Part shown: piece after piece, positions 7,622 through 60,149 of the stretch
How positions within the stretch are numbered: the stretch's first letter is position 1
Layout: each line of letters starts with the position of its first letter
Source of the DNA: Akkermansiaceae bacterium
Lineage (GTDB): Bacteria; Verrucomicrobiota; Verrucomicrobiia; Verrucomicrobiales; Akkermansiaceae
Direction of reading: 5' to 3'
Length of the DNA: 60,508 nt
NCBI GenBank assembly: GCA_029866215.1
Contig: JARWZU010000054.1
Coordinates: forward strand, 1-60,508
The notes under the pieces: model-generated
Databases searched by the model: none
Told to the model about the DNA's origin: nothing
What the model saw: only the letters and a program-made list of their open reading frames with translations
Program-made: the position numbers and the translations under genes

Positions 7622-9436
7622 TCAGCCGTGAGACACCGCAAGGTTCTCCAGCGAGGCCCAACTCGGACGCTCGGTTTCGAAGCTCATTTCCACCCGACTC
7701 AGCGGATGCTGAAACGAAAGTTTCCACGCATGCAACTCGAGTGGTGGAGCTTCCAGATCGAGCGTCTGAGTATCGCCGATCTGCTGATCCGCCAAATAAG
7801 CCGGGTCTCCGACGACCGGAAACCCAAGTTGCCAAAGATGAATCCGAATCTGGTGAGTGCGCCCGGTGCCAAGCTTGGCTTCCAACAACGAAGTGCCATC
7901 CGCAAAGCGCTGAACGACCTTGAAATCGGTACGAGTGGCAAGCCCATCAAGTTCATCAATCCGCCGAGTGCCCAACACGTCGGGCTCTGAGGAAATCGGT
8001 GCCTCAGAGAAAAACTCATCTTGTTCCGGATGGCCCTGCGCGCGGACGAGGTAGCGTTTTTCCACCGCTCCATTGAGGAATTGCTGTTGCAGCACCCGAC
8101 AAAAATGGCGGGTCCGCGCGAAGACGACGAGCCCGGTGGTGTTCGCATCCAAGCGATGAACCGGCCGTGGATACTTCGGCGCGTACGCTTGATTTAAAAT
8201 GTACTGGAGGGTGTTGCGGTGAAAACGGCCGCTCGCATGCATCGGCAACGGCGCTGGCTTATGGACCACCACGATGGCTTCGTCCTCATGCACGATCCGG
8301 ATTTCCGCTGAGACCGGCGGCTCGACGGCTGGCGGGAAAATCTGCACGATCCGCTCGCCTGCGCGCACCACATGGTCTTTGCCACGCGGCGTCCCCCCGT
8401 AATTTTGAAAACGCCCAGCCTCACAACGAGCCTCCCACTCCGCCGCTGGAACCTGCGGAAAGAGATCCACGAGAGCCTCTAGCAGCGTGCGACCATCTTG
8501 CGCTTGGGGGACGTTGATCGGGCGGCGGTTTTCTGCCGAAATCGATCCGGGCAATGGATGCGTCGTCTGGAAGATCGACTCGTGCAGCACTCCGATGCGT
8601 TCTGCCATGCGCTCGGGCGCGCTCTTGAAACAATGCGGGCAGCTAACGCCTTCCACATGCCGCGGATCTTCCTGATCCACCGCGTCCAAGGGTGCCTGAC
8701 ACGCAAAGCAAACCGCGTAACCCGACTCGCGGAGCCCAGGGTCCACCCCGACCCGCTGATCAAACACAAAGCACTCACCCTCGTAGTGATCGCCACCACA
8801 TTCCTCAAAGTACTTGAGAATCCCACCATCGAGCTGAAAAACATTTTGGAACCCCTCGTTCTCCATGAATGGCCCAGCCTTTTCACAGCGAATGCCGCCC
8901 GTGCAAAACATCACCACCGGTTGATCCTTGAGTTCTGCTGGCAATTTCCTAACGGCATCCGGAAATTCCCGGAACGTGTTGATGTGCGGAATGAGCGCGC
9001 CCTTGAAGGTTCCGAGCTTCACCTCATAATCATTCCGAGTGTCTAGCAACGTCACCGGTCGCCCTTCGTCCAACCAGCGCTTGAGTTCGGTTGCCGCCAG
9101 CTTGGGCGAGGTATAATTTGCCGGGCGGATGCTCTCGACACCGAACGCAATGATTTCCTTTTTCACCCTCACCAGCATGCGGTTGAACGGCTGGTCGTCG
9201 CTGAGGCTCACCTTGGGCTCCAGCCCTTCGAGGCCGGGGATTTGGCGGAGTTTTGCGAGTAGCAGGTGGATCGATTCCTCCGCGCCAGCCACGAAGAGAT
9301 TGATCCCCTCGGTGCTCAGCAGGATCGTCCCCTTGAGATTCCAAGACTTGCAAGCGGCGATGAGGTCCTCACGCAACTCCTTCAGCCCGGTGAGTTGAGC
9401 GAAGCGATACGTTGAAATGTTCGTGACAGCAGGCAC
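7622..9436 (-). CDS. TrhO tRNA-U34 hydroxylase fused to an RluA-type pseudouridine synthase
   Basis: The protein has 604 residues. The first half is TrhO/YceA-like: an N-terminal acylphosphatase-like domain (about 1-100), a rhodanese domain (about 105-215) with catalytic-type loop CTGGIRC (Cys178 and Cys184) and a Cys cluster CFAC...CPHC (243-269). TrhO makes 5-hydroxyuridine at tRNA position 34 in some species. The second half has a short S4-like stretch (about 315-370) and an RluA catalytic domain (about 375-600) with VHRLDANTTGL, whose Asp430 is the expected nucleophile, and GTGRTHQIRIHL. Both active sites look intact. The plus-strand DUF971 gene is divergent. The substrate of the pseudouridine synthase half cannot be told. 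Confidence 0.9.
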   Translation of the reverse strand: MPAVTNISTYRFAQLTGLKELREDLIAACKSWNLKGTILLSTEGINLFVAGAEESIHLLLAKLRQIPGLEGLEPKVSLSDDQPFNRMLVRVKKEIIAFGVESIRPANYTSPKLAATELKRWLDEGRPVTLLDTRNDYEVKLGTFKGALIPHINTFREFPDAVRKLPAELKDQPVVMFCTGGIRCEKAGPFMENEGFQNVFQLDGGILKYFEECGGDHYEGECFVFDQRVGVDPGLRESGYAVCFACQAPLDAVDQEDPRHVEGVSCPHCFKSAPERMAERIGVLHESIFQTTHPLPGSISAENRRPINVPQAQDGRTLLEALVDLFPQVPAAEWEARCEAGRFQNYGGTPRGKDHVVRAGERIVQIFPPAVEPPVSAEIRIVHEDEAIVVVHKPAPLPMHASGRFHRNTLQYILNQAYAPKYPRPVHRLDANTTGLVVFARTRHFCRVLQQQFLNGAVEKRYLVRAQGHPEQDEFFSEAPISSEPDVLGTRRIDELDGLATRTDFKVVQRFADGTSLLEAKLGTGRTHQIRIHLWQLGFPVVGDPAYLADQQIGDTQTLDLEAPPLELHAWKLSFQHPLSRVEMSFETERPSWASLENLAVSHG

Positions 9437-23723: not shown

Positions 23724-23994
23724 TCTTCGGAACACTCGCGGGCTGGACCATGAGATGATAGGCCGCCACCCTGCGCCACAAGATCAAAGATCGCTGCGGG
23801 ATTATGTCATTCGGGTCTAGTCCTCACCCCATGATTTTCGCCATGTAGCACAACCGATTTTTCGCCCCCCCAGTCTGGAGGATTTTCGCAGGTGTGGGAC
23901 GCAAAACCTCAGTACTTACCAATGCCTGCAAGGACGGCAGCATTCTTGCAGCCGCGATGGCCGTCTTTGGAATCGGCCCTATCCGCAGCTCATC
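23724..23994 (+). pseudogene. Decayed partial copy of the DUF374 acyltransferase gene
   Basis: The segment corresponds to 29512-29785, the N-terminal half of the lysophospholipid acyltransferase-like gene, at roughly 85-90% identity by eye. It carries small indels and a TAG (23846-23848) where the intact copy has TGG in the WHNR motif. It stops around the GSIRGS region and lacks the C-terminal half. Between the PEP-CTERM fragment and this piece only about 40 bases remain, against 273 in the better copy, so a deletion joined them. No product is expected. Confidence 0.85.
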
Positions 23995-24398
23995 TTTCAT
24001 TCTGCCTAGTCTGGGTAGTCGAATGATCCACTATTCCGCAGTTAAGAGTGTTGGCGAGGAGCACAAACTCTTCTCCTGTCAGCTTTTCAGGACGGAAACC
24101 AACGTACGACGGGTTCACTCATTGGGTGAAAGAGAGCTGAGTTTCAAATCCCTTCCTGCAGGAAAGCAATCTCACCACCGTGGCAGCGACGAGGCGAGGC
24201 GCTTACTCCGCACGGCGGAAGGATGGTGCGGAATCACTTTTTGGAGTACTGCAGAGTGATCGCCGAGCTTCCCACGAACTACCCTTTGCCGCCCACCAAG
24301 CGGATTGGAACTTGGCGACCTTCCTGACGAAAAATGGGTCGGTGACCGCCTCGATGTCGGGGTCTCCCAGCGCCGTGTACGCCCCCCCCCCGTTACGC

Positions 24399-29354: not shown

Positions 29355-29389
29355 GGCGGCGCCACCCCCGTGGCGTCGCCTTTTTGTTT
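29355..29389 (+). terminator. Intrinsic terminator after the PEP-CTERM fragment
   Basis: GGCGGCGCCAC-CCCC-GTGGCGTCGCC makes an eleven-pair stem with one G-T pair, followed by TTTTTGTTT. It lies between the PEP-CTERM fragment and the acyltransferase gene, which argues that the acyltransferase starts at 29463 and not at a start inside this hairpin. Confidence 0.9.
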
Positions 29390-29462
29390 CATTGAAGCTC
29401 AAGGATCCAACGGCGAAGCTTGTCAAATGCCAGCGGGTGGCGAGACTTGCCGGACTGAACCC

Positions 29463-30134
29463 ATGGTCGCCACCAACAACTTCGAAATCCGAGGAACCCG
29501 CAAAGCGGAGATCTTCGGAACACTCGCGGGCTGGGCCATGAGATGCTGGGCCGCCACCCTGCGCCACGAATTCGACGATCGCTGCGGGATCCTGTCACCG
29601 GGATCTCATCCTCACCCGATGATTTTCGCCATGTGGCACAACCGAATTTTCACCGTCCCCCCAGTCTGGAGGATTTCCGGAGGTATGGGACGCAAAACCT
29701 CCGTGCTCACCAGTGCCAGCAAGGACGGCAGCATTCTTGCCGCCGCGATGGCCATCTTTGGAATCGGCTCTATCCGCGGATCATCGTCCAGACGCGCCGT
29801 CGCAGCCTTGATTGGCATGAAACGTGCCCTCGCAAGTGGGATCGACATCTGCATCACCCCCGACGGCCCGCGCGGCCCTCGCTACGGATTCCAACCCGGC
29901 GTCATCAAACTCGCCCAATCCTCATGCGCACCCATCGTACCCATCCACGTCAACTATTCATCAGCATGGCGACTCAAAACATGGGATGGTCTTGTCATCG
30001 CCAAACCCTTCAGCAAAGTGACCATCATTTTTGACACGATGCTTGTCGTACCCGCCAAACTCGATGAAATTCAATTCCAACACGAGGTCGCTCGGGTCCA
30101 TGCAGCCTTGATCGCCGGAGCCGATGATGCCTAA
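29463..30134 (+). CDS. Lysophospholipid acyltransferase-like protein (DUF374)
   Basis: The protein has 223 residues from ATG 29463, chosen because the longer frame runs through a terminator. DUF374 motifs are all seen: FAMWHNRIF, TSASKDGSILAAAM, RGSSSRRAVAALI, CITPDGPRGPRYGFQPG and IVPIHVNYSS. The family resembles LpxL-type acyltransferases and probably adds an acyl chain to a lipid A or membrane lipid precursor, but its substrate is not established here. The HNR and TPDGPRGP parts should form the active site. A truncated duplicate lies at 23724. folD follows after twelve bases, probably in the same transcript. Confidence 0.88.
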   Translation: MVATNNFEIRGTRKAEIFGTLAGWAMRCWAATLRHEFDDRCGILSPGSHPHPMIFAMWHNRIFTVPPVWRISGGMGRKTSVLTSASKDGSILAAAMAIFGIGSIRGSSSRRAVAALIGMKRALASGIDICITPDGPRGPRYGFQPGVIKLAQSSCAPIVPIHVNYSSAWRLKTWDGLVIAKPFSKVTIIFDTMLVVPAKLDEIQFQHEVARVHAALIAGADDA

Positions 30135-42535: not shown

Positions 42536-45500
42536 ATGAACAAACCCAAATTTGCAGCCCGCTTTTTTACAACCATCACCGCGCTGCTAGTCGGCTGCGG
42601 AGTAAGCCATGCCGCCGAATGGTTGAATCTTCCTGCCAAGCAAGGCACAGCCAATGGTAAAAAAGTCGTCCTCATCTCTGGCGACGAAGAATACCGAAGC
42701 GAAGAATCCTGCCCAATGCTCGCAAAAATCCTCAGCCAAAAATTTGGATTCAACTGCGTCGTGTTGTTTTCGATCAACCCAGATGGAGGATACATCGACC
42801 CAAATTTCCGCGAAAACATCCCCGGCTTGTCTGAACTCGATTCGGCAGATCTATTGATCATCGGAACCCGCTTCCGTGAATTACCCGACGACCAGCTCGC
42901 GCATTTCGCCAGTTTTCTCAATGCGGGCAAGCCTGTCATCGGCTTCCGCACCGCGACCCACGCATTCACTGGCCCTGCCATGGCCGGCGATTTTAAATGG
43001 TCTAATTTTGGAATCAATATCCTCGGTGAAAAGTGGGTCAGCCATCACGGCAAACACAAATCCGAAGGAACGCGCAGCGTCGTCGAAGAAGCAAACGCGA
43101 CCAACGAGATCTTACAGGGGGTCGGTGAGATTTTCGCCACCACCGATGTGTATGGCATCGCCAATCTCGACCAACATGCTGCGACAATCCTCCTGCGAGG
43201 TGCCGTGACCCAATCCCTCAAGCCCTCGTCAAAAAATCTCGAGGGCCCCAAGAACAATCCAATGATGCCGCTCGCGTGGCTCCGAGACTACATCGCACCA
43301 AACAAGAAAGCTAAAGGCAAAGCCTTCTGCACCACGCTCGGGGCCAGCGTGGATTTTGCCGATGAGAATCTCCGCCGCCTCATGATCAACGCATCTCTCC
43401 AGCTCACCGGTTTGAGAATTCCAACGACGGCCGACGTCAAGGTGGTCGATCCATTCACTCCGAGCGAATACCGCGCAATCACCGAAAAGAATTTCTACAA
43501 GAACCGGAACCTAAAGCCTGACGATTACGCACTCGGTAAAAGTCCGGCCACCCAAGAAAAAACTGATAAGACCGAAGCCCTCCATCGCCACGCGCCAAGC
43601 ATTGAAGCACCTAGCGCGATTTCCATTAGAGCGCAAACCGTCGCTGCGCCTGCACTTGGTGAAAGACTGGTGCTAATTGGCAATGGCCTAGCAGAAAGGG
43701 ATCTCTATTACAACCGACTCGAAGCCGAATTTTATCTTCGCTACCCTGACAAACAATTGATCATCCGCAACATGGGACGTCCCGGGGACACGCCGGCATT
43801 CCGGCCCCATCCGAGTCGGAAGTCCCAGTGGGCATTTCCAGGTGCCGAGAAATTCCGCCCAGAGTTTGCTAAACACAGCGGCGAAGGATTTTTCCCAACC
43901 CCAGACCAGTGGCTCACCCACGTAAAAGCAGATACCATCGTCGCCTTCTTCGGCTACAATGAGTCATTTGATGGCCCATCCGGAGTTGAAAACTATCAAT
44001 CGGAGTTAGAAGCATTTGTCCAGCACACGCTCAGCAAAGCTTACAATGGCAGCACCGCGCCACGTCTCGTACTCGTCTCTCCCATCGCCTATCAAGATCT
44101 TTCAAGCACCAAGCAACTGCCTAACGGATCCGCAGAGAACGCAAACCTCGAGCTCTACACTGCCGCCATGGAAAAGGTAGCTAAAAGCCATTCGCTGACG
44201 TTCATTAATCTCTTCCACCCGACCGAAACCCTGTATTCCACCACCAAAGCCGCACACACCTCATATGGGTTCATTCCGAACGATGCAGGCTACCAAAAAC
44301 TTGCCAGCATCCTTGCCAACGGCATTTATGGACAACAACCCCACGTCTCAAAAGCAAATCCGAGTATTCTCCGCGATGCCGTAATTCAGAAAAACTGGTT
44401 CTGGAGTAACGACTTCAACATCCTCAATGGCGTTCATTCCCACGGACGCCGCTACAAGCCATTCGGCCCACAAAACTATCCCGACGAGGTTCTGAAAACC
44501 CGCGAAATGACCGCACTGCGCGACACGCTCATCCACAACATCGCCACAGGGAAAACCTCTAGCCTCGCAGTCGACGATTCAAAAACACACACCCTTCCGC
44601 CGGTAGAATCCAATGTCGACACCAAGCCAAACTATCTCTACGGCCAAGATGCAGAAAAAGCTCTCGCCGTTCCCGAAGGCTACCAAGTCAAACTTTTTGC
44701 ATCTGAGCAAGAATTCCCAAATCTCGCAAAACCCATGCAAATGTCATTCGACAACCGCGGCCGTCTATGGGTCGCCACCATGCCAACCTACCCAGCATAC
44801 CGGCCAGGCGATCCGCTACCAAATGACAAAATCCTTATCTACGAAGACACGAATGGCGATGGAAGCGCCGACAAAGAAACGGTATTCGCAGACAAACTCC
44901 AATTACCCATCGGATTTGAATTTGCGCCAGAAGGAGTCTATGTCTCGCAAGAGCCTAATTTGATACTTCTTCGCGACACTGATGGCGATGATCGTGCGGA
45001 TGTTAGTGAAATCGTGCTCGGTGGATTTGATACGCATGACACTCACCATGCCATCAGCGCTTATTGCGCAGATCCCTCTGGTGCATTCTTGATGGGTGAG
45101 GGAGTTTTCCTCCACTCAAACGTCGAAACTGCATACGGACTTGTTAGAGGAATGAATGGAGGCTTTTTCCGCTTCAATCCGCAGCTGAGTCAGTTAGAGA
45201 GAACTGCCCAACTCAGCGTCCCAAACCCTTGGGGAATTGCCTTCGATGACTGGGGACAAGATTTCTTCCTCCACACCTCTGGCACAAGCATCAACTGGAT
45301 GCTACCGGCTTCAGTAAAACCAACTTACGGCAGCCAATGCCCCTCAACCGCAAGCCTCGCCCCGAAAGGCCAAGCAGTCCGCCCAACCTCCGGGCTTGAG
45401 TTCGTTTCATCCCGCCACTTCCCTGACGCGGTCCAAGGTGACATGCTTCTCTGCAACAACATCGGGTTCCTTGGAATCAAACAGCACGCGATCGTCGATG

Positions 45501-46699
45501 ATGGGACTGGCTACAAAACCGATTTTCGCCAAGACTTACTGAGATCATCCGATGCAAATTTCCGCCCTGTGGATCTCGAGTTTGCACCCGACGGTTCACT
45601 CTATGTCATCGATTGGCACAACACGCTCATCGGACACATGCAGCACAACGCCCGTGACCCACTGCGCGATCACGTCCACGGCAGAATCTATCGGATCACA
45701 TACCCATCACGCCCACTCGTCGAGGCAGCCAACATCGCAGGCGCCCCGATCGCGAAATTGTTAGAAAATCTAAAGCTACCCGAATACCGTACACGGTATC
45801 GGACCCGCCGTGAACTTCGCTCACACCCTGCAGAACAAGTGATTCCTGCCATCCAAAAATGGATCGTAACCCTCGATCCACAAAATCCACGCTATGAACA
45901 CCATCTGCTCGAAGCACTCTGGACAACCTGGGGATTAAATCAAGTCAGCACCGACCTCGTCCAACGTTTGATTGAATCCAAGGATTACCACGTCCGCGCT
46001 GCTACCGTTCGGGTGATTCGTTACAATGCCTCACAGGTCCCAGATCATGCAACATTGCTTGAAAAGGCCGCCAGCGATCCTCATGGCCGAGTTCGGTTAG
46101 AAGCAATCATCGCTGGATCATGGCTCAACGATGATATCGGCAAAGAAGTCATCAAGATTGCCTCGGCCCAGCCGCTTGACGACTGGAACCGTGCTGCAGC
46201 CAAGACCGCAAGCACCCGCATCGAGGGTAGCAAAGAGACTGCTGAAGATGAACACCCAGCACCAGCACCGCCCCCTCACTTGAACGATTCAGAGAAGAAA
46301 CAGTTTCTAGCAGGTCATGAGATTTATTTCCGCGATGCCCACTGCGCGACCTGCCATCAGCCTGATGGCAAGGGCATCGATCCCGCATTCCCACCTCTTG
46401 CAAAAAGCCCTTGGGTCGCTGGCGATCCTACCCGCACGATCAAGGTAACCCTCCATGGACTGATGGGACCTCTTGAAATCAATGGAAAACACTACCCAGG
46501 ACAAGTGCCGATGACGCCATTCGGAGGCATCCTCAAGGATGATGAAGTCGCAGCAGTTCTCACATACATCCGCAATACCTTCGGTAACACCGGTAGTGCA
46601 GTCAGCCCGCAAGAAGTGAGCAAGGTCCGCGATGCATCCAAGTCCCAAAAGCTTTTCTACTCACCCTCAGAACTTCTCAAAGAGCATCCTCTCAACTAA
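42536..46699 (+). CDS. Secreted ThuA-SGNH-dehydrogenase-cytochrome c fusion
   Basis: The protein has 1387 residues. Order: signal peptide (about 1-28); ThuA/glutamine-amidotransferase-like domain (about 38-265; VLISGDEEYRSEESCPMLAK, LIIGTRFRELPDDQL, KPVIGFRTATHAF); an SGNH hydrolase-like domain (about 380-610; RLVLIGNGLAERDLYYNRL, FFGYNESFDGPSG); a PVC-type dehydrogenase propeller (about 690-1060; YQVKLFASEQEFPNLAKPMQ, FAPEGVYVSQEPN, LEFAPDGSLYVIDWHN); a HEAT-like helical part; and a cytochrome c domain whose CATCH haem site starts at residue 1270, with Met in LMGPLEINGK or VPMTPFGG as possible ligand. It should oxidise a sugar or glycoside in the periplasm. The substrate is unknown. Confidence 0.88.
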   Translation: MNKPKFAARFFTTITALLVGCGVSHAAEWLNLPAKQGTANGKKVVLISGDEEYRSEESCPMLAKILSQKFGFNCVVLFSINPDGGYIDPNFRENIPGLSELDSADLLIIGTRFRELPDDQLAHFASFLNAGKPVIGFRTATHAFTGPAMAGDFKWSNFGINILGEKWVSHHGKHKSEGTRSVVEEANATNEILQGVGEIFATTDVYGIANLDQHAATILLRGAVTQSLKPSSKNLEGPKNNPMMPLAWLRDYIAPNKKAKGKAFCTTLGASVDFADENLRRLMINASLQLTGLRIPTTADVKVVDPFTPSEYRAITEKNFYKNRNLKPDDYALGKSPATQEKTDKTEALHRHAPSIEAPSAISIRAQTVAAPALGERLVLIGNGLAERDLYYNRLEAEFYLRYPDKQLIIRNMGRPGDTPAFRPHPSRKSQWAFPGAEKFRPEFAKHSGEGFFPTPDQWLTHVKADTIVAFFGYNESFDGPSGVENYQSELEAFVQHTLSKAYNGSTAPRLVLVSPIAYQDLSSTKQLPNGSAENANLELYTAAMEKVAKSHSLTFINLFHPTETLYSTTKAAHTSYGFIPNDAGYQKLASILANGIYGQQPHVSKANPSILRDAVIQKNWFWSNDFNILNGVHSHGRRYKPFGPQNYPDEVLKTREMTALRDTLIHNIATGKTSSLAVDDSKTHTLPPVESNVDTKPNYLYGQDAEKALAVPEGYQVKLFASEQEFPNLAKPMQMSFDNRGRLWVATMPTYPAYRPGDPLPNDKILIYEDTNGDGSADKETVFADKLQLPIGFEFAPEGVYVSQEPNLILLRDTDGDDRADVSEIVLGGFDTHDTHHAISAYCADPSGAFLMGEGVFLHSNVETAYGLVRGMNGGFFRFNPQLSQLERTAQLSVPNPWGIAFDDWGQDFFLHTSGTSINWMLPASVKPTYGSQCPSTASLAPKGQAVRPTSGLEFVSSRHFPDAVQGDMLLCNNIGFLGIKQHAIVDDGTGYKTDFRQDLLRSSDANFRPVDLEFAPDGSLYVIDWHNTLIGHMQHNARDPLRDHVHGRIYRITYPSRPLVEAANIAGAPIAKLLENLKLPEYRTRYRTRRELRSHPAEQVIPAIQKWIVTLDPQNPRYEHHLLEALWTTWGLNQVSTDLVQRLIESKDYHVRAATVRVIRYNASQVPDHATLLEKAASDPHGRVRLEAIIAGSWLNDDIGKEVIKIASAQPLDDWNRAAAKTASTRIEGSKETAEDEHPAPAPPPHLNDSEKKQFLAGHEIYFRDAHCATCHQPDGKGIDPAFPPLAKSPWVAGDPTRTIKVTLHGLMGPLEINGKHYPGQVPMTPFGGILKDDEVAAVLTYIRNTFGNTGSAVSPQEVSKVRDASKSQKLFYSPSELLKEHPLN

Positions 46700-46740
46700 T
46701 ATCCCAACCGAGGCGACTACATTCCAATGAGTCCCCGTGC

Positions 46741-48120
46741 TCAGCGGGATTGAGCCACATCACCCTCCTTACCTGAGGGTCTGTAGATGTTGAATTCGAC
46801 TCTTGAGAATGAAGAGATGTTTAGTTTTGCCTTCCCAAAATTCTGACTAGAACCCATCAGAAATCCACCTTTCATCCCGTCGAGGTGGAACACAAGAGAG
46901 GATCCATCAGCAAGGTGGCCGCGAACATCACCGCTCACACGCTTGCAACGCTCGAGACTCGCGGGTTTTAGTGCCACAGCGCACAATCTTTCTAAAGGAA
47001 CGACAACCTCGCTGAATGCCGTCCTGATTTTCACCATTCCTTTTTCAATCGAGACCACTTCACCCGAAATGGTATCACCATTCCTCAACTCCATGCGGCC
47101 AGCAGCATCATTCACGGTAGCACCGACCTTCGGAGTATCATCATCGCGCGGACCAAGATCTTGATCCAGCATCGCCTGCGCCCCAGCCACAGGATCCAAC
47201 TCTCCATCCCACTTACTTACCCGAATGCCTGAAATCTCCACGGGCGAAGCACTGGTCGAAATGAAATGAACCACTCCTCCACCCGAATCTGATACCACAT
47301 TTGAATCAGTCCAAACATCCACCACCTTACCATCTACAAGAAGACAGAACTTGCCAGACTTCAAACTCGCACAGATCTCAATCCGAGCTTCTTCGCTTTC
47401 CTCTAACAGAGTTACGTTAGGAGTGTGCCCGAGAAATTTTTGCCCGTTGCATCTCCGAAAATAAACCGATCTCTGCTGAAACGTAACCTCATAGCCACTG
47501 GTGGGGTGATCACTTCCTGTATCATTTGAAAAAAGAATAAGCTTGAGCCCCAAGCCGCCATTCCACGCGGCATCAAAGGCGATGCGACATTCGTCTGGCA
47601 AGCCAACGTCTCGCGCAATTCCCCCAGGCGCTTTCGAGGCAAACATCGAATGCCGATAAGTCCACGCGGGACTCTCACCGGATTGCCTCCAACCATTTAG
47701 TCCGCTGGGCCCCTTAAAGAGAAAATTCGTAGGCTCGCTGATCGTCACACTCTCGACCATGAGTCGCTTGAACGTCATGCGCCCCGCAAAACCAGTGTCC
47801 AATACGATTGAATCCGCACTCACCGCTGCCAATTGCCCTCGGACTGCATCTCCATTCGTCAACCTCACCAAGGCCTCGGACCGATCATCAAGCTGGGGTA
47901 ATTCTACAGTTTGTCTGAACTCGATTACGTTTTTCATTAAAAACGTAGCGGGCTTCTCAAGCATGGGCGATTTCCAAACCAGCCACTCTCCATCGATTGA
48001 TTCGACCGAGCCAGACAACACATCATGGTTGCCGAGCTGGATCATCGAGTCCAAGGAATCCTCGGCAAAGACAATGCACGACGAAAAACTAATCAACAAC
48101 AACATCCGCAAGAGTTTCAT
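46741..48120 (-). CDS. Secreted protein with RLxNGD modules (paralogue 2)
   Basis: The protein has 459 residues from ATG 48120, with a signal peptide (KLLRMLLLISFSSCIVFA). It contains about 45-residue beta modules with LxNGDxxxG: ALVRLTNGDAVRGQLAAVSA (about 88-107) and RMELRNGDTISGEVVSIEKG (about 340-360), and between them a LamG/concanavalin-like part (WRQSGESPAWTYRHSMFA; IAFDAAWNGGLGLKLILF; RIEICASLKSGKFCLLVDGKVVDVW). The modules resemble Sm-like barrels. The start overlaps the stop of the related gene upstream by four bases. It is the last gene of a five-gene operon. Function is unknown. Confidence 0.75.
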   Translation of the reverse strand: MKLLRMLLLISFSSCIVFAEDSLDSMIQLGNHDVLSGSVESIDGEWLVWKSPMLEKPATFLMKNVIEFRQTVELPQLDDRSEALVRLTNGDAVRGQLAAVSADSIVLDTGFAGRMTFKRLMVESVTISEPTNFLFKGPSGLNGWRQSGESPAWTYRHSMFASKAPGGIARDVGLPDECRIAFDAAWNGGLGLKLILFSNDTGSDHPTSGYEVTFQQRSVYFRRCNGQKFLGHTPNVTLLEESEEARIEICASLKSGKFCLLVDGKVVDVWTDSNVVSDSGGGVVHFISTSASPVEISGIRVSKWDGELDPVAGAQAMLDQDLGPRDDDTPKVGATVNDAAGRMELRNGDTISGEVVSIEKGMVKIRTAFSEVVVPLERLCAVALKPASLERCKRVSGDVRGHLADGSSLVFHLDGMKGGFLMGSSQNFGKAKLNISSFSRVEFNIYRPSGKEGDVAQSR

Positions 48121-49463
48121 TCGTTTAAAGTTTCCTCGGGTTGATTTCCAATCCAATCCAATACAGATATCGCAGCTTGCTCAAATTTTAATACACCGAG
48201 CAGCGGATGCACTGCAGTCGCCTGACCGTCGAAAAGAGCAATGGAAGCAAGCCCCAGCCTCTCATGTTCATGCAATTTTACCCTAACTACGATTCGATTC
48301 CTCGATTCAAACTCACGCTCCGGTCTTGCAAAACATACCTTCAATAGATCAGACTCCTCAAGCTCAGTAGTCTGCTCATCGGAACCACTCTTAAGTGAAT
48401 ACGCAAAGCCGCCATTTTCCAAGGCAGTCACACTCAGTCGGCCACTCCAAATTTCCTCATCACGACTTAGTACCCTGTCAGATCGGGAATACACCTCATC
48501 TTCGCGAAGATCCGATATGATCTCTTGACCTGTTTCAAATAGCTGAATTCCAAAAACCTCCTGCACCGAGCCTGCGGCAGCAGCACTCAAGAGTAATAAA
48601 CCGCCCCCAGTTGTAGCATCTTGCACTGGATCGACCCCGCTCGCTTCAAGCGCCCCATCTAGAAACAAATCAAGTCTCGACGTCTTGCGGTCCACTCGAA
48701 TTTCTATATCTACCTGATTCTTTGGAAACTCATACGGCCTTCGAGGCGACATCATCACCGAGTGGAAATGTTTTCCTTTACTCGACTCCCTCTTGATTTC
48801 AAAACCCGCACTGTTGAATTGTAAACAATAACGATCTATCCGCTCGACCTCTGGAGACATTGGATCTGCAAAATACAGCTGGAACGCAGGATCGGCCTGC
48901 CAACGCAGCGTGAACTTCACGCCGAATTGCTGCGGCAATTCAAATGGCTTTCCGGCAACGGCCGCCCCATTCGCGCTAAGCACGCCCTTCACCACCCTCC
49001 ACGCCCCAAGCGATCCAATCTTTGGGACCCATTCATCGTCTGTGTTAGGTCCCACATAAATCATCCTTTTTTCACGAATTCCAAATTGAATGGATTCAAC
49101 TAGCTCGCGAGGAATGGTTAAATGCCCCAGTGCCTGAGAGGACACTTGCAGGTCAGCGTCACTCAAACCTGTAACGCTTGCAAGGAACTGGTCACCATTC
49201 CTCAACCGAACCATAGCACTCAGCGTGCTTGATTCGGTCGCGGCCTCAGCGAATCTAACCTTCTTTACCGAGTTCGCCTTTAGAAGAAGTGGCTCTATGG
49301 CTAGTGGAGATCTGAGCTCAATCACCCCATTTTCATGAATCGCTTGGATCACTCCAGACAAATGCGAACCATCCGACTGCATCACTTCGTCAGCGCGCAG
49401 GCACCCAAGACCAGCACCAATCATCACTGATCCTATAAACCAATTTAAACACGAACTTAGCAT
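48117..49463 (-). CDS. Secreted protein with RLxNGD modules (paralogue 1)
   Basis: The protein has 448 residues with a signal peptide (WFIGSVMIGAGLGCLRA). It is related to the next gene: the module SAMVRLRNGDQFLASVTGLS and a LamG-like part (TLRWQADPAFQLYFADPMS; DIEIRVDRKTSRLDLFLDGALEASG) occur in the same order. A first module lies near residues 28-55 (MQSDGSHLSGVIQAIHENG). Its C-terminus, RIVVRVKLHEHERLGLASIALF, is separate. It lies five bases after the prenyltransferase-repeat gene. Together with paralogue 2 it may form a surface complex. Function is unknown. Confidence 0.75.
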   Translation of the reverse strand: MLSSCLNWFIGSVMIGAGLGCLRADEVMQSDGSHLSGVIQAIHENGVIELRSPLAIEPLLLKANSVKKVRFAEAATESSTLSAMVRLRNGDQFLASVTGLSDADLQVSSQALGHLTIPRELVESIQFGIREKRMIYVGPNTDDEWVPKIGSLGAWRVVKGVLSANGAAVAGKPFELPQQFGVKFTLRWQADPAFQLYFADPMSPEVERIDRYCLQFNSAGFEIKRESSKGKHFHSVMMSPRRPYEFPKNQVDIEIRVDRKTSRLDLFLDGALEASGVDPVQDATTGGGLLLLSAAAAGSVQEVFGIQLFETGQEIISDLREDEVYSRSDRVLSRDEEIWSGRLSVTALENGGFAYSLKSGSDEQTTELEESDLLKVCFARPEREFESRNRIVVRVKLHEHERLGLASIALFDGQATAVHPLLGVLKFEQAAISVLDWIGNQPEETLNE

Positions 49464-49467
49464 GATA

Positions 49468-50487
49468 TCACTTTTCGTAGATCGGGAGGAATCGATAGTT
49501 CAATGCGAGCGATAACAAAGCACCGGCCGTGCTGAACGAAGGACCTTGGTTGCCCAAGAATGACCCGTCGGTAGATTGTATCGCCGCAAGGTAGCGGATA
49601 TTGCGGCGATTCCACTCTTTCCATGCAATTTCGTCGGCGTGGAACAATGCTTGTGCCATATAATACTCAAAATAAAATGGATAGAGCCGATCGCGAAAAT
49701 CCATATTTTTTTTCAGATACTCCACGCTTGCACGATATCCACTAGAATCGACCTCCTTAGCGAGCCCAAAACATAGAGCACTGATGGCTGTCAAGGTCGG
49801 CCTGCCGCTTGATGGTGCGGTATATCCTTGCGAGCCGTCTTTGCAACGACATGACGCAAGATAAGCAAGACCCTTCCGAATGGCTTCATCGGGCACCGAG
49901 ATTCCAGCGTTGCGAGCAGCGAATAATGCCACCATTTGACACCCAGTTACCGTGGTGTCCGCATCCACGCTTTCAGGCGTGTAGCGCCAGCCACCGAATC
50001 GATTGCCTTTCTGCGAACGGATGATCAAATCAACCGCTTTTTTAAGTGCACTTGCAATTCTTGGATCCTCAAGTACTCCATAGGATTCTGCTAGAGCCTT
50101 TGCAGCAAACGCATGATTGTACATGCTTGATCCAATGTAGCCCGTTTTCTCGTCTTGCTGGGAAATAATATAGTCGATCCCGAGGCGAATATTCTTGGCG
50201 TATGGCCCGTTGTTCGGATCTTCACCATGTGCAAGAAAGGATGCAACACATAGAGCAACAACCCCAGGTTCAGCACCAACAGTTCCACCCCAAGAGCCTG
50301 TGGAATCTTGAGATTTCGCAAGGTATTCAAGTCCTCTTGTATAGATTGACTCAGCTTGCACCGGAATAATATCATCTTGGCGAATCGGTGAATCCTGCGC
50401 CCATACGGATGCCATGAAGGCAATGGAGAAAGCCAGAATTCTACTCAGGTTCACCAACGAGAAAATCATTATGTTCACCGCAATCAT
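49468..50487 (-). CDS. Secreted protein with prenyltransferase/squalene-cyclase repeats
   Basis: The protein has 339 residues with a signal peptide (LSRILAFSIAFMASVWA, ending near AQDS). Several alpha-toroid repeats are visible: GLEYLAKSQDSTGSWGG, GIDYIISQQDEKTGYIG, LIIRSQKGNRFGGWRY, GLAYLASCRCKDGSQGY and YLAAIQSTDGSFLGNQG. The stretch SVDADTTVTGCQMVALF is in the position where squalene-hopene cyclases have DxDD, with DADTT here, so cyclase activity is doubtful. The fold also occurs in thioester and peptide-binding toroids. Secretion means that it acts in the periplasm or on the surface. It overlaps the upstream gene by four bases. Confidence 0.82.
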   Translation of the reverse strand: MIAVNIMIFSLVNLSRILAFSIAFMASVWAQDSPIRQDDIIPVQAESIYTRGLEYLAKSQDSTGSWGGTVGAEPGVVALCVASFLAHGEDPNNGPYAKNIRLGIDYIISQQDEKTGYIGSSMYNHAFAAKALAESYGVLEDPRIASALKKAVDLIIRSQKGNRFGGWRYTPESVDADTTVTGCQMVALFAARNAGISVPDEAIRKGLAYLASCRCKDGSQGYTAPSSGRPTLTAISALCFGLAKEVDSSGYRASVEYLKKNMDFRDRLYPFYFEYYMAQALFHADEIAWKEWNRRNIRYLAAIQSTDGSFLGNQGPSFSTAGALLSLALNYRFLPIYEK

Positions 50488-51107
50488 TTTTGTTTTTTCT
50501 CAGCCCCTCGGTTGTACAAATCTAATATCTTTTTGAATTCTTCGGGCAATTCATGCCCCGCATTGCCACTTGCCTTTGGTACTCGGCGCGCTTCACCCTT
50601 GCCACCTGCAGATTCCGCAATCGGGTTCCCCGTTGCATCCGAAGCGCCGTTAGCCCCTTCCCCGCCTTGATCCGGACTCCCTGCACCTTTATTTTTGCTA
50701 TCTTTATCGGCATCAGGTAATTTTCCCATCATTCGCTCCATCATATCCATCATCGCACCACCCGATTGCCCACTACCTTGCTGTTTTTGCTTTTCCTTAG
50801 CGGCTGCGTGAATCATCTCGATGACCTCAGTTTGCGTCGCGATGGTCCGTCCACCGGTGTCACCGCTGGCGAGTTGCTCCGTCGCCTCATCCATGATTTT
50901 TTCAACGTCATTGAACAACTCGATCACCTGAGGAACCGTCTGCTCGATCTTCAATTGTTGCACATCCGCAGACAACTCGTCTTGTCGGTCAGCCACTTGG
51001 CTAGCTCCCTCACGGTGTGCTCTAGTAGAGGTTTTAATTGAGATCTCCTCCGAGGTAGCTCTCCCTAACACCAGAAGCAAGCAGGTAAATAAAATTGGCC
51101 GATTCAT
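50484..51107 (-). CDS. Secreted helical, low-complexity protein of unknown function
   Basis: The protein has 207 residues with a signal peptide (RPILFTCLLLVLGRATS). Residues 25-110 are a charged helix that probably forms a coiled coil (REGASQVADRQDELSADVQQ; VPQVIELFNDVEKIMDEATE). Then a Met/Gly/Ser-rich linker (GAMMDMMERMMGKLPDADKD, GSPDQGGEGANGASDATGN) leads to a short helix ELPEEFKKILDLYNRG at the C-terminus. Both ends overlap neighbours by four bases. It may be a bridge between the DUF4175-like membrane protein and the secreted toroid protein. Function is unknown. Confidence 0.7.
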   Translation of the reverse strand: MNRPILFTCLLLVLGRATSEEISIKTSTRAHREGASQVADRQDELSADVQQLKIEQTVPQVIELFNDVEKIMDEATEQLASGDTGGRTIATQTEVIEMIHAAAKEKQKQQGSGQSGGAMMDMMERMMGKLPDADKDSKNKGAGSPDQGGEGANGASDATGNPIAESAGGKGEARRVPKASGNAGHELPEEFKKILDLYNRGAEKKQK

Positions 51108-53752
51108 GGCTTCTTAGTTTGGTTCAGTGAATTGGGCGGGGTGCGTCTGGCTTGTTCGAGCACGCGAGTCTGCCCCCTGAGGTCTTGCTCCTGTTGGACA
51201 AGTTTCATAACCCGCAGCATAAACTCGAAATCCTCATCTTCTGGGCTCACTCTGCTGTCCCCCACCCCATTACCAGATCGGTCATTTTCACCCTCCAGTT
51301 TCTTCGCCCATTCATCGAGCTGGCGCGCCCACTTCCTTGAATTCTCAGTGGCCATGAATGCATGATTGATTGTCAACAAGCTCCGGATGTCTTCAAGGCC
51401 GACATCTAGGCGCGATGATCGCATTTCATCAAGAATCTGCTTAAACGATTCGCCCTTGGTACGACCAAAATAACTGGCTAGATCTTCCTGCAACCAACGC
51501 AAATCGGATGCGGTGTTCGCCTGTTGCATGGAAGCTTGTTTCAGGCGCCGCTGATCAGCTGGATCCAGTTTCGACATCCGCACCCCAAGCACACTCGGAA
51601 ATACATCCACCAGAGCACTCGCCAACGCCGATTGCTCGCCAGCCGCTTTTTTAAGCCGATTAACAAACGTGCCAGCCTCAAATCGTCGGTTCGCCTCGTT
51701 TATCTTTGCAATGGCATCCTGCATTTTTTCTACCGCCTTGGTTTGCTCTTCCACGGCACGCGAGACGTCAGTGCTTGTCTTTTCTTCGGTGTTCGAACGC
51801 TCCTGCGCATCACCAATCTTATTTTTCACCGCAGGTAGATCGTTCTGATAAAGCTCCTGCATCGGCTTCAGAGATTCCGCGATTTTTTGTAGAGTGGCTT
51901 TGGGGATCTCACCATTGCGGGTCGAATCTTTCATAAGACTTTCCATCCGCTCTGTTAGGTCTTCCATGCGAATTTTACTCTCAGCCTCCGCCTGCTCTTG
52001 GCCCTCCAGACGCTTTTGGCTCGGCGCGTCTTGAAGCGCTTTTCCATCGAGGCGCATCAGCCGCTGGTTTTCATCTAGCAGCTCTTGCTCGCGGCGAGCG
52101 AGGTCTTCGAATTCAGTGACAATTCGATCAAACTTGCCTTTTAACATCTGTGCATGTTCGTCGCGAGTCAGCACGTAAAGAGTGATGGGCTCGGAGTAAA
52201 CACGCCTCCGCTTGGGGTATGCATCTTCGCAATACCCTCGGAGCATAATTTTCTGTGGTCCAATCCCAAAAGCCGCTGGCGAAAACGCTACAGCCCTCGT
52301 GAATCTCTGACCCTCGTTCGCTCCATCCAACAAATCAAAAGAACCTCTCGCGAGGGTCTCGGCAGTCATGCGATTCGAATCACCTTCCCATTCGATACCA
52401 GCCTCTTTCACCCCGAAATCATCCTCGGCCGATAGCTCGAAATCGAGAGTCTCCTCTGGCAACATGACTTTTTGCCGATCGATTCCCTGGAGATAGCAAG
52501 ATGGCGCGATGTCCTTCGATGCGGCAACGAGCAGATGGTAGCCAGACTCTCCCTCAAGACTGTGGGTATCGACCCATGAAAATGGAATCTCAAACGGCAC
52601 TGTGCCAACATCGATAGGTGAGGTCCTCGCCATATTACTCGAAATTTCTAACAATCCGCTAGATGATCTGAACTCTTCGTCATCTTCCGGTGGTCCTCCA
52701 GAGCGCTTTGCTTGAGTGGGCCCAAATTTTGCTGATCCAAGTGGCCGATTGATGGTTAGATTTATGTTTAGCTGAGACCCTGCAACCACGTTAAGAGTGC
52801 CCGTGCTTAGATCAGTCGTTTTTGAGCCTAGGTTTAGATAGCTTGGATAAGTGATAGTTGCGAGCGCGGATTCAACTGCCGGACGTGCTATCGGAATCAC
52901 CCGCACCTCGTGACGAAGATCTCCCACCTTAAACGTCACGTTCCGAGGCTCTTGCTGTCCAGGAAAGACGAATCGGTAAGCATTCGATTTGAGCCGCGAC
53001 ATCACCACGGGCTGCGTGCCAATTTTTCCAAACGCACTTGTGGGGTGCTGCTCCGAACCAAGATCTAACCGGAGGGTGATCTCAAACGACTCTCCCGCTG
53101 CGACCACGCGAGATGTAGGCGGGTTTGCCAAGCGGGTGAAGGTGTAACGCTCAGTTTTCGACCACGGCAGGAGTAGTCGTTGCAGCGCGTTGAGTCCAGC
53201 ACGAGGGGTCCAAGTGACGACCATGGCAGCGATTCCTGCCAGCGCAACCACGCTTACCACCCATATCCGCTGCTTTCTGATGGGCAGGGCTGCATCCAAG
53301 TTGCATCGCTCAACTTCTAGCGCAACTGACTCCATCGCCGCCTCGAGCAGGCGTGACGAATGACCATTTTCATTGACACCCTCCCGTTGAAGCTCGAGCA
53401 CTCCAAGCAGACGATCGCCCAGCCCGGGGTAACGCCGCGCGATCAATCGAGCAAGCTGGTCTTGTTTGCGCTGCTTCCACAACCAACGGTGCAACCAATA
53501 GGGCGCAAAGACCATGGAAAGCGAGCCACCTAACAAGAGAATCACCAAACGAAAAATGACCGGCGTCTGCCAAACGCGATCAATTCCATAGACTAACAGG
53601 AACGACGCGAGCAAGCCAATCCCCCCTGCAGCAAGAGCCTCAATGATCTTTGCGCGCCACAGCTGGCCACGGAACTCATCTAGCTGATGCCGAAGCCCAT
53701 CAGGGATGGTCCCATTCGATTCAAGTCCTGGAGGTTTGAATGGATCAGCCAT
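51104..53752 (-). CDS. DUF4175-like membrane protein with long coiled coil
   Basis: The protein has 882 residues: two close membrane segments (about 37-58 and 66-86) and a third near 165-183, followed by an extracytoplasmic region of roughly 700 residues. After the third segment come beta-rich parts (LANPPTSRVVAAGESFEITL; ATITYPSYLNLGSKTTDLS), an Ig-like part with EETLDFELSAEDDFGVKEAGIEWEG, and long helices (TEFEDLARREQELLDENQRL; RAVEEQTKAVEKMQDAIAKI). The layout matches DUF4175-type proteins known from Planctomycetes, Verrucomicrobia and Alphaproteobacteria, whose function is not known. It is the first gene of the five-gene operon, 153 bases after the RbsD gene. Confidence 0.8.
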   Translation of the reverse strand: MADPFKPPGLESNGTIPDGLRHQLDEFRGQLWRAKIIEALAAGGIGLLASFLLVYGIDRVWQTPVIFRLVILLLGGSLSMVFAPYWLHRWLWKQRKQDQLARLIARRYPGLGDRLLGVLELQREGVNENGHSSRLLEAAMESVALEVERCNLDAALPIRKQRIWVVSVVALAGIAAMVVTWTPRAGLNALQRLLLPWSKTERYTFTRLANPPTSRVVAAGESFEITLRLDLGSEQHPTSAFGKIGTQPVVMSRLKSNAYRFVFPGQQEPRNVTFKVGDLRHEVRVIPIARPAVESALATITYPSYLNLGSKTTDLSTGTLNVVAGSQLNINLTINRPLGSAKFGPTQAKRSGGPPEDDEEFRSSSGLLEISSNMARTSPIDVGTVPFEIPFSWVDTHSLEGESGYHLLVAASKDIAPSCYLQGIDRQKVMLPEETLDFELSAEDDFGVKEAGIEWEGDSNRMTAETLARGSFDLLDGANEGQRFTRAVAFSPAAFGIGPQKIMLRGYCEDAYPKRRRVYSEPITLYVLTRDEHAQMLKGKFDRIVTEFEDLARREQELLDENQRLMRLDGKALQDAPSQKRLEGQEQAEAESKIRMEDLTERMESLMKDSTRNGEIPKATLQKIAESLKPMQELYQNDLPAVKNKIGDAQERSNTEEKTSTDVSRAVEEQTKAVEKMQDAIAKINEANRRFEAGTFVNRLKKAAGEQSALASALVDVFPSVLGVRMSKLDPADQRRLKQASMQQANTASDLRWLQEDLASYFGRTKGESFKQILDEMRSSRLDVGLEDIRSLLTINHAFMATENSRKWARQLDEWAKKLEGENDRSGNGVGDSRVSPEDEDFEFMLRVMKLVQQEQDLRGQTRVLEQARRTPPNSLNQTKKP

Positions 53753-53905
53753 TGCGCGTCACGCGTTGGATCAGATGTTGCTGGGATTGGGGGGATTTTT
53801 CAAATTGAGATTGAATTATCGAGAGCATTCTTGCAAATCCCAGGTTCGGCATGCGCTCAACGATTTGATCTATCAAAGACCAAGGCAGAACGCGAGCCAA
53901 CCACC

Positions 53906-54295
53906 TCACTCAGACTCTAAAATGATGTTGCCATAGGGCGTCGGGTCACCAGTACGGATGAGCCCGATCGCATGAGGTACCCGCTTTTTAAAGTCCACAT
54001 GCGCCTCACGGGTCAGCGGGATCTTGCCAAAGGATCTTGAAAATTTCTCGACGGTCTCGCGAGAATTGCTGGCAACAAACTCGTCCGCTTGCCAGATCCG
54101 CCCAACTTTGAAAACTGGAGTCAGTAGGTCGAGCACATCAAGCACGGTCGGAATCCCCTTGGTCAGGGAGATGTCCACCGTCTCAATTTCGAGCCAAAAT
54201 GGAAAGGCCCAGTCCGCGATGACCAAGGTGTTGGTGTGACGGATGCGGGCAATCAGGTGGAGGAGATCAGGATTTAAAATTCCAGTGTGGAGCAT
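53906..54295 (-). CDS. RbsD/FucU-family sugar mutarotase/pyranase
   Basis: The protein has 129 residues from ATG 54295; a GTG three codons earlier is possible. The family catalyses anomeric or ring-form change of ribose or fucose. LHTGILNPDLLHLIARIRHTNTLVIADWAFPF matches the N-terminal signature, with the catalytic His in RHTN, although Asn replaces the usual Asp after HT. The C-terminal AIGLIRTGDPTPYGNIILES is typical. No ribose or fucose transporter lies nearby. It is followed by the DUF4175 operon on the same strand. Confidence 0.85.
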   Translation of the reverse strand: MLHTGILNPDLLHLIARIRHTNTLVIADWAFPFWLEIETVDISLTKGIPTVLDVLDLLTPVFKVGRIWQADEFVASNSRETVEKFSRSFGKIPLTREAHVDFKKRVPHAIGLIRTGDPTPYGNIILESE

Positions 54296-58262: not shown

Positions 58263-60149
58263 TCACTGAAGGCCACTCAGCGAGCGAAGAATCGCTTTCC
58301 GGACAGGCTGGCTCGACAAATTTCCGAGGTGGCCACCATCGGGCAATATCGTCAGCTGCGATTTTTTGAAAGTGCGCTCTAACCAGTCCACATCGTTTGG
58401 CGTTAGCAGAAAATCATTCCGATTCGCCAACACTCGAATCTTCGGTTGGAGCCGAAGTTGCTCCTCGTGTGACCGAAGATTTCCCTCACGCGTGAGATCA
58501 GAAACACGAATTCCTTTTTCCAGACAGTAAGAGACCGCGAATTGGCGCAAATAATCCTCAAAGGAATAACCCATGATTTCTTGATAACTTGCATCCCGCC
58601 TGAACGGATTGATCGGTTTTTGTAGCTCATGTCGGTCATGCCGCTTGTGGCAACTGTAGATAATGTCACGCAGCGTGAGGCGGAAGGTCATGCCGATAAG
58701 ATACTTGGATTCAACCTCATCAAAAACTGGCCCGCTAGGAGCCGGCCCCACCATCGCTCCGATCATTGCCGCCTTTTGAAATGCATTGTCGACGCGACGT
58801 TGTCTCTCCTCCTTTGGCCAGGCAAGAGGCGCGTTTTGAAACGCATCCACACACTGCACTCCGTGACGAAGATCCACCGGCGAATCAATTGCGAGGTAGC
58901 GATCGAATCGCAGAAGATCGGAATTGTGAGAGCTCTCGCCAGCGGCGAGGCGCAATGTAAGAAAGCCACCCATCGAGCAACCGACCAATGCCCGCTTACC
59001 AAGCTTGCCGTGATACTTCGCTGCTAGAGCACGATCCATTTCCGTGAGGGCGACATGCAGGTCGTGGCTGTCGTTTGGAGGGTAAACCGGCAGGTCGGAA
59101 GACGAAGCCTGCTCCATGAATTCCGGATGAAAAACACTGGTGGTCGTAACCACCGAGAATCCGTTCTGATAGAGATACTCTGCCAACCAGAGGGTCGTGT
59201 CGGACAGCCGATGCGAGCTGAGACCTGGTGAAACATAGACCACCGGCGCGGTGCTGGGCTGCAGCCAATAGTTGAATTTAAGCTTCCTACCCGTGGACGG
59301 AATGCGAACACTCATGAGCCGTCCGCTAGCAGGGAAATCTGGGTTTTGGCATTTAGCTTGGATGACTCCAAAGGTCTGAAGTGTCGCCGAATCGACTGGC
59401 CCACGAACCTGCCAATCCGGCTTCTGATCCTTGGTGGCGTGAGTCCACGCATCCTTGGTGAGGGCGTACGAATCATACTCCGGCTGAATCATGCGGACCC
59501 TATCCTCGATTTGATCCGACAACCGATTGAAGGTTGAACCATAGGAAGCCGCCATCAGGCTTTCGCTGTAGTTCCATGGCGCTGCAGCCCGGTCTGCAAA
59601 AGAACCGACCGCGTGGCGATCATCACTCGGCCCTAACAGAGGCAAAATCAGATATGAGTTCGGTTTCCACCCCCATTTCCCAAAGGTTTGGCTAAAGTCC
59701 GCATTGGACTTGGGCATCTTGAGGGTACTGGCGACATCAAAAAATCCACCCACTCCGGCGGTGGTATTGCAAATGAATCTCCGAGTTTCATCTCCGGCAC
59801 CTGTCCACCGCCCTTGCAATGCATGATTGAGCACACGCCCCGGATAGGTGATGTTGCGGCTAAAGTTTGCGATCGACCCCCGCACTGGCTTGGGAACCAC
59901 CGTCCGATACATTCTCCCAACCGGCTGCATCACGCCGAGGAGAATCCCTCGGTTCACCTCCCAAATGCTGCGATTCAGCGGCTCAAGCGGATCGCTCATC
60001 ACCGTGGGAAGTGGCGTCGCTGAAAGTGAAGCATCCAAATTTTCCGCCCGAATCATCGGACAGATCCAGATCAACGCCGCGACTGAAGCACACAGGCTGC
60101 CCGAGCGGGGGGCTGACAACCGAGGATATGACTTAAATTTAAAATTCAT
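58263..60149 (-). CDS. MlaA-like outer-membrane lipid-transport domain fused to an alpha/beta hydrolase
   Basis: The protein has 628 residues. After a signal peptide (about 15-35) the first half (50-250) is MlaA/VacJ-like: DPLEPLNRSIWEVNRGIL, VPKPVRGSIANFSRNITYPG, FICNTTAGVGGFFDVAS, DFSQTFGKWGWKPNSYLILP and LLGPSDDRHAVGSFAD. No lipobox is seen. The second half (about 290-628) is a serine hydrolase: VVYVSPGLSSHRLSD, LVGCSMGGFLTL with nucleophile Ser392, and HLGNLSSQ for the late His. MlaA removes phospholipids from the outer leaflet; an attached hydrolase could degrade them. This is an inference. No other mla gene is in this window. Confidence 0.85.
   Translation of the reverse strand: MNFKFKSYPRLSAPRSGSLCASVAALIWICPMIRAENLDASLSATPLPTVMSDPLEPLNRSIWEVNRGILLGVMQPVGRMYRTVVPKPVRGSIANFSRNITYPGRVLNHALQGRWTGAGDETRRFICNTTAGVGGFFDVASTLKMPKSNADFSQTFGKWGWKPNSYLILPLLGPSDDRHAVGSFADRAAAPWNYSESLMAASYGSTFNRLSDQIEDRVRMIQPEYDSYALTKDAWTHATKDQKPDWQVRGPVDSATLQTFGVIQAKCQNPDFPASGRLMSVRIPSTGRKLKFNYWLQPSTAPVVYVSPGLSSHRLSDTTLWLAEYLYQNGFSVVTTTSVFHPEFMEQASSSDLPVYPPNDSHDLHVALTEMDRALAAKYHGKLGKRALVGCSMGGFLTLRLAAGESSHNSDLLRFDRYLAIDSPVDLRHGVQCVDAFQNAPLAWPKEERQRRVDNAFQKAAMIGAMVGPAPSGPVFDEVESKYLIGMTFRLTLRDIIYSCHKRHDRHELQKPINPFRRDASYQEIMGYSFEDYLRQFAVSYCLEKGIRVSDLTREGNLRSHEEQLRLQPKIRVLANRNDFLLTPNDVDWLERTFKKSQLTILPDGGHLGNLSSQPVRKAILRSLSGLQ

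Follow-up and report, generated by a model that had tools for sequence, protein, structure and literature searches.

The window, a stretch of 60,508 nucleotides (contig JARWZU010000054.1 of assembly GCA_029866215.1, an Akkermansiaceae bacterium; positions 1 to 60,508 of the forward strand), carries a five-gene operon, P0001 to P0005, on the reverse strand at 46741-53752. Their products probably constitute the membrane-bound and exported arm of a Bat/cmd-type MoxR-VWA envelope system, the other half of which lies on a second contig, C4, of the same genome (3,025,235 bases in 88 contigs, of which the window is C36). The partnership with the C4-type MoxR-DUF58-BatA half is well supported by gene content, homology, co-occurrence, joined gene order in relatives and gene splitting, and the role of the whole would be envelope maintenance or the maturation of exported proteins. 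The open reading frame (ORF) of P0001 (51104..53752, 882 aa) combines three hydrophobic helices with three Ig-like domains and a long helical stretch, and P0002 (50484..51107, 207 aa) is a coil protein that corresponds to the C-terminus of the longer homologues of P0001. P0003 (49468..50487, 339 aa) is an exported alpha-alpha toroid (SQHop_cyclase_C / prenyltransferase-like) with the motif DADTT, P0004 (48117..49463, 448 aa) is an LxNGD / LamG-like protein, and P0005 (46741..48156, or 46741..48120 from an in-frame ATG at 48120; 459 aa) has a signal peptide, beta modules and a ConA-like jelly roll.

The window genes do not share an operon with MoxR, DUF58 and BatA in their own genome. A MoxR-DUF58-BatA-VWA3 run is found at G000:C4:36163-42561 with no P0001 behind it, beside what read as genes for ribosomal proteins S13 and S11. 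In this locus (L091), MoxR (L091:6163-7344) matches PF07726 (AAA_3) over the whole profile (E = 3.9e-62), DUF58 (L091:7307-8275) matches PF01882 (E = 7.1e-48) and has DASGS at 113, and BatA (L091:8331-10331) matches PF07584 (E = 3.5e-19) and has DRSSS at 97; VWA3, the second membrane protein, is named VWA by its DxSxS motif only (DNSQS at 78). Gene order was read in 33 stretches across a set of 59 genomes (the window genome and 58 relatives) and in 20 more around BatA. In L075, MoxR, DUF58, BatA, VWA3, a long P0001 homologue, coil genes, the toroid and a long LamG protein follow one another on one strand; L071 has the same order, as does L076 with VWA3 found as two ORFs, and L070 and L074 have the joined order from DUF58 on, where the stretches read end. 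Since one long ORF covers the place of BatA in L070, the ORF scan gave no separate match there, and the gene was located by the genome searches for BatA. Pfam recognizes AAA_3, DUF58 and BatA domains in L075 and in the C4 locus alike. An operon cut into pieces in this way conceals its likely working unit from a reading of any single window.

A tree of 35 DUF58 proteins groups the C4 protein with those of the 18 loci that lie apart from P0001 and of the five joined loci (24 proteins on one side, support 97/99), and the 11 proteins on the other side belong to paralogous systems, two of them from the window genome. Among the 18 is L147, in which a P0001 fragment lies divergently beside DUF58. The paralogues L093 and L084 were flagged as having long branches.

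The 59 genomes were mapped for P0001, the toroid, P0005, DUF58 and BatA. Orthologues of P0001 were found in 52 (that of G008 as a contig-end fragment), BatA in the same 52 and the toroid in 51, the sole mismatch being G025, which is 57% complete. The seven genomes without P0001, BatA and toroid come from five genera, and in g1 and g10 other members have all three. With any P0005 match at E <= 1e-3 present in 45 of the 59, the families do co-occur outside the window genome, a point on which the original prediction depended. A second set of 145 genomes was drawn from the phylum, the window genome and G039 being common to both sets; here P0001 and the toroid were found in an identical set of 23, and BatA in those 23 and in G177 (89% complete). 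Genus g18, with 15 genomes in this sample, has ten with all three and five with none. Fisher tests of P0001 against BatA, both of which ignore shared ancestry, give 3e-9 for the 59 and 8e-26 for the 145 genomes. Among the carriers of the locus are records named Akkermansia muciniphila (L119, L120, L122) and Akkermansia sp. (L127), and the match coordinates of L119 are identical to those of G088 of g18.

Of the 23 carriers in the phylum sample, 9 have BatA, P0001 and the toroid on a single contig and within 12.5 kb of one another. In six carriers (G079, G082, G085, G091, G168 and G170) BatA and P0001 share a contig at a distance of hundreds of kb or more, and in the others they are on different contigs, some at contig ends. 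Joined loci within 14 kb in G038, G049, G051 and G053 of the first set bring the joined one-strand cases to 13, with the stretch read in five. Ten of 36 named loci have a toroid without an upstream P0001 match (L108, L111-L113, L116-L118, L123, L126 and L128), with more than 1 kb of sequence upstream (only about 1 kb in L123). P0001 and BatA were found in 13 of 13 genomes searched, those of nine of these ten loci (all but L108), in which a full P0001 and BatA lie elsewhere, and of four others, and the parts are therefore kept when not adjacent.

P0001 and P0002 are a case of gene splitting. The AlphaFold model of P0001 (mean pLDDT, the predicted local distance difference test, 80.1; predicted template modelling score, pTM, 0.51) has helices up to residue 194 that include the three hydrophobic stretches, Ig-like domains at about 205-529 and a helical part at about 530-870. 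A hidden Markov model (HMM) built from 46 P0002-family sequences and run against 13 P0001-homologue sequences matched ten of them; in nine the match lies at the C-terminal end, the ORFs being 1048-1320 aa long (E from 4e-20 to 1e-14 within the 13, and from 1e-17 to 4e-12 against all ORFs). The tenth match is a separate short ORF in L080, which the unmatched main ORF of that locus adjoins, and the two other homologues without a match, L068 and L069, own a P0002 gene. Fused P0001+P0002 ORFs of 1037 aa occur in L045 and L102, probably the same genome twice. By these comparisons P0002 is the split-off end of an ancestral single protein with P0001.

No Pfam match above cut-off was obtained for P0001, P0002, P0004 or P0005, and an NCBIfam scan of the operon proteins gave nothing above cut-off. 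An analogy with complement and alpha-2-macroglobulin, taken from Foldseek matches of P0001, was dropped on account of Z scores no higher than 9.3, root-mean-square deviations (rmsd) that were often high and the commonness of Ig-like domains. The P0003 toroid, when read, also lacks GCGEQ, the thioester motif of alpha-2-macroglobulin and complement. Hydrophobic helices with a long further region, presumably the layout of DUF4175 proteins, are a likeness of P0001 to that family in general outline only. The earlier labelling of P0001 as DUF4175-like did not hold up, as it has no Pfam or NCBIfam match, PF13779 has no match in the window genome, and one of 22 members of the P0001 alignment matches at E = 7e-4. 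P0001 differs in this want of an HMM match from DUF4175 (PF13779) proteins such as AdvA of Acinetobacter baumannii (PMC7481262; papers are cited by PMC number, each for part of its text).

P0004 aligns with P0005 at 18% identity. The AlphaFold model of P0005 (pLDDT 78.3, pTM 0.64) has two small beta modules, a jelly roll at about 131-307 and two more beta modules, which bears out the description of LxNGD beta modules around a LamG-like core. Compared with ConA-like lectin folds, residues 131-307 reach Z scores of 15.1 to 18.4 (rmsd 2.3-3.7 over 146-176 residues, among the best 50 matches shown), with 18.4 to 1oq1 and 17.0-17.1 to CBM66. In its model P0005 thus shares the jelly-roll fold of ConA-like lectin, LamG and CBM66 domains and differs from them in the four small LxNGD beta modules that flank it; sugar binding is putative. 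This modelled likeness to carbohydrate-binding domains, the export of the products and the relatives in which toroid and LamG genes stand together away from P0001 would all suit a stand-alone envelope scaffold or adhesion complex, in which P0001 would tether the toroid together with lectin-like proteins binding glycans, either external or of the envelope, with no working link to MoxR. We consider such a complex unlikely, given the joint presence and absence with BatA over both genome sets and the joined operons of relatives.

Three LamG-like genes are present in 21 of the 36 named loci and two in four (L094, L095, L101 and L105), among them both nearest relatives (L094 and L095); the remaining 11 have fewer LamG-like matches, several being cut by contig ends. 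In other families of the order the LamG-like genes are a single protein of 1013 to 1257 aa. Nine of ten such long LamG proteins contain an AhpC/TSA-thioredoxin-type domain with WCGPC in the consensus, which lies close to the C-terminus in the eight for which its position was read; the protein of L070 has a PPIC isomerase domain besides, and Pfam gave no match for the tenth (L073). In these relatives the two kinds of domain point to exported-protein maturation as the job of the system.

Several observations weigh against the joining of the two halves into one system and against this role. Of the 20 stretches around BatA, 12 have all four genes of the MoxR-DUF58-BatA-VWA3 run together; the other eight lack at least one of them within the stretch (partly through contig ends), and L130 has BatA alone. 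Pfam finds no VWA domain in BatA or VWA3 of C4, and a simple Walker A pattern has no match in the C4 MoxR, though AAA_3 covers the whole profile. Several paralogous MoxR systems occur in the same genomes, and the toroid orthologues of L126 and L128 have no LamG-like match beside them (the L128 stretch being 1.9 kb there). Presence cut-offs were placed at natural E-value gaps after the lists were seen, and the presence data are not independent across the tree. The C4 and window halves are linked here by genes only, that is, by content, order, tree and co-occurrence. The hint of maturation comes from relatives only, because Pfam finds no thioredoxin or isomerase domain in the lectin-like proteins of the window, and in Leptospira biflexa bat mutants were reported to have no oxidative-stress or shape defect, the function of Bat being disputed (PMC3557215).

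The last two points, together with the L073 protein, also tell against a periplasmic redox or disulfide system on the lines of the Bacteroides aerotolerance idea, in which the exported arm would pass reducing power or refold damaged exported proteins. Bat operons were earlier linked to aerotolerance and periplasmic reduction, as told in PMC3557215, and the thioredoxin-type domain of the long LamG proteins and a glutaredoxin match in a paralogous system agree with that proposal; we regard it as unlikely.

If the operon is the exported arm of a MoxR-VWA system, the cytoplasmic and inner-membrane arm would comprise the MoxR AAA+ ATPase, the DUF58 protein, the BatA-type membrane protein and VWA3. 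P0001 would be anchored in the inner membrane and project its three Ig-like domains and coil, P0002 being the separated coil end, and the toroid and two lectin-like proteins would lie outside the inner membrane. ATP cycles of MoxR, relayed by the VWA proteins, would change or load P0001, which would hold the toroid-lectin set. That set may bind, and mature or hold, an envelope client (a glycan-bearing or folding protein), and in relatives the client-handling set would have a built-in thioredoxin-type domain, in one case with a prolyl isomerase domain as well. A physical complex, its direction of work, its client and an envelope role are suggested by this arrangement of parts. Of the envelope complex previously proposed, the membrane tether with exported toroid and lectin-like parts is retained, and the self-contained new system is not. 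As a tentative and less likely extension, the five genes might supply the missing effector arm of a MoxR system of the Bat type. The whole would then be a machine that spans the envelope and serves folding or assembly, and cytoplasmic ATP hydrolysis would act through membrane VWA proteins and an Ig/coil strut on an exported toroid-lectin complex, with glycan- or disulfide-bearing envelope proteins as possible clients.

A MoxR ATPase, a DUF58 protein and two membrane proteins with DxSxS, one of them BatA-type, are common to C4 and to the MoxR-DUF58-VWA operons known as Bat and cmdA-D. The operon described here differs in running on, in relatives, into the Ig/coil membrane protein, the exported toroid and the lectin-like proteins, and in being cut in two in the window genome. 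The cmdA-D operon of Rhizobium leguminosarum is said to carry exactly the four genes listed for C4. Its mutants are described in PMC5700661 as defective in envelope and shape, and stress survival in Riemerella is influenced by MoxR and BatA (PMC11834572). In the cases studied, MoxR ATPases and their VWA partners serve as remodelling chaperones, and the pairs NorQ/NorD, RavA/ViaA and CbbQ/CbbO have in common with the present system the principle of an AAA+ MoxR protein and a VWA partner with a metal-ion-dependent adhesion site (MIDAS) motif (PMC9976466). NorQ and NorD are most likely cytosolic and have a known client (PMC9976466), whereas membrane VWA-type proteins and exported parts are found here. 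The MoxR-vWA systems treated in PMC7159879 are different ones, and its main text, searched by term, mentions neither DUF58 nor prenyltransferase nor LamG. Among the papers listed by searches of one open-access library, none was seen, by title or start of abstract, to describe MoxR-VWA operons with toroid and LamG-like genes. The MoxR-VWA kind of system to which the parts belong is already known. The role of Bat-type MoxR-VWA operons is an open question in the literature (PMC3557215, PMC5700661), and concrete partners can now be named for it in the exported proteins tied to the Bat-type system by order, tree and joint retention.

P0003 scores 34.1 bits against the Pfam model SQHop_cyclase_C (cut-off 26.1), which places it in the alpha-alpha toroid superfamily, and 35.6 bits against the hopene-cyclase model TIGR01507, far under the cut-off of 431.1. 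It shares with squalene-hopene and oxidosqualene cyclases this Pfam domain and sequence similarity to solved cyclases, and differs from them in being one toroid only, exported and apparently without DxDD. The motif DADTT noted in the original prediction lies at residues 175-179, with D175, A176 and D177 invariant in 23 aligned orthologues; that it stands in place of DxDD is plausible only, the alignment register being ambiguous. One suboptimal alignment (hit 7) sets DADT on or beside the DVDD of squalene-hopene cyclase, and better-scoring alignments use other registers. The Pfam score, the invariant residues and the suboptimal alignment would be in keeping with a working enzyme, an acid catalyst like the class II terpene cyclases with an isoprenoid carrier outside the membrane as its substrate, a role that a single exported toroid domain with so low a hopene-cyclase score makes very improbable. 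At E <= 1e-50 no hopene cyclase is present in the window genome, and one is present in 6 of 115 genomes of the phylum. In L111, L112, L116 and L118, whose toroid-LamG genes have no adjacent P0001, the gene directly before them is small and reads as truncated-haemoglobin-like.

With the ATG at 48120, the junctions from P0001 to P0005 are an overlap of 4, an overlap of 4, a gap of 4 and an overlap of 4 bases, as had been claimed. A start giving the 4-base overlap is available at 18 of 24 readable P0001/P0002 junctions and 15 of 25 P0002/toroid junctions in the 36 named loci; junctions without it vary, with gaps of up to 265 bases. The closest named relatives at the locus are Akkermansiaceae metagenome assemblies (toroid identity 91% in L094 and 87% in L095). 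The tight junctions behind the "strict unit" of the earlier description are real, but the unit is not self-contained, its partner half MoxR-DUF58-BatA-VWA3 being on C4 and joined to it in relatives. A membrane or secreted location for all five products, also put forward there, agrees with the three hydrophobic helices of P0001 and the strong N-terminal hydrophobic stretches of P0003 and P0005; P0002 and P0004 fall below the hydropathy cut-off and are signal-peptide-like by eye only. Upstream of P0001, after an RbsD/FucU-like gene, lies a gap of 153 bases (53753..53905) in which no promoter-like site was found (the scan of 46500-54000 gave one site elsewhere, against 5.9 expected), and neither promoter nor terminator scans around the operon exceeded chance.

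The window genome has two more MoxR-DUF58-VWA-BatA sets, L092 (G000:C17) and L093 (G000:C38), whose layout includes two VWA proteins. L081-L090 are paralogous MoxR-DUF58-BatA-VWA-P1-like systems that end in a HEAT-repeat protein with a glutaredoxin match or in a separate gene whose DUF4175 match barely exceeds the cut-off. In L136-L138, L144 and L149, from several genomes of the genus, the MoxR-DUF58-BatA run is broken by small unrelated ORFs, some of which read like toxin-antitoxin, KilA-N or four-helix proteins.

Convergent with the operon, 42536-46699 (+) encodes a PVC-type heme-binding protein of 1387 aa with ThuA, GDSL lipase, DUF7133, HEAT and cytochrome c matches. At 58263-60149 (-), an MlaA-like phospholipid-binding lipoprotein match (residues 49-234; NCBIfam, below cut-off) is followed by weak alpha/beta-hydrolase-type matches, possibly a fusion. 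The first part of the gene at 23894-24259 (+) nearly repeats an internal stretch of 29370-30134 (+) (GRKTSVLT..KDGSILAAAMA.FGIG), after which the two diverge, and the gene looks like a partial broken duplicate. The ORF at 7622-9436 (-) reads, in translation, as a fusion of a rhodanese-type protein with a pseudouridine synthase.

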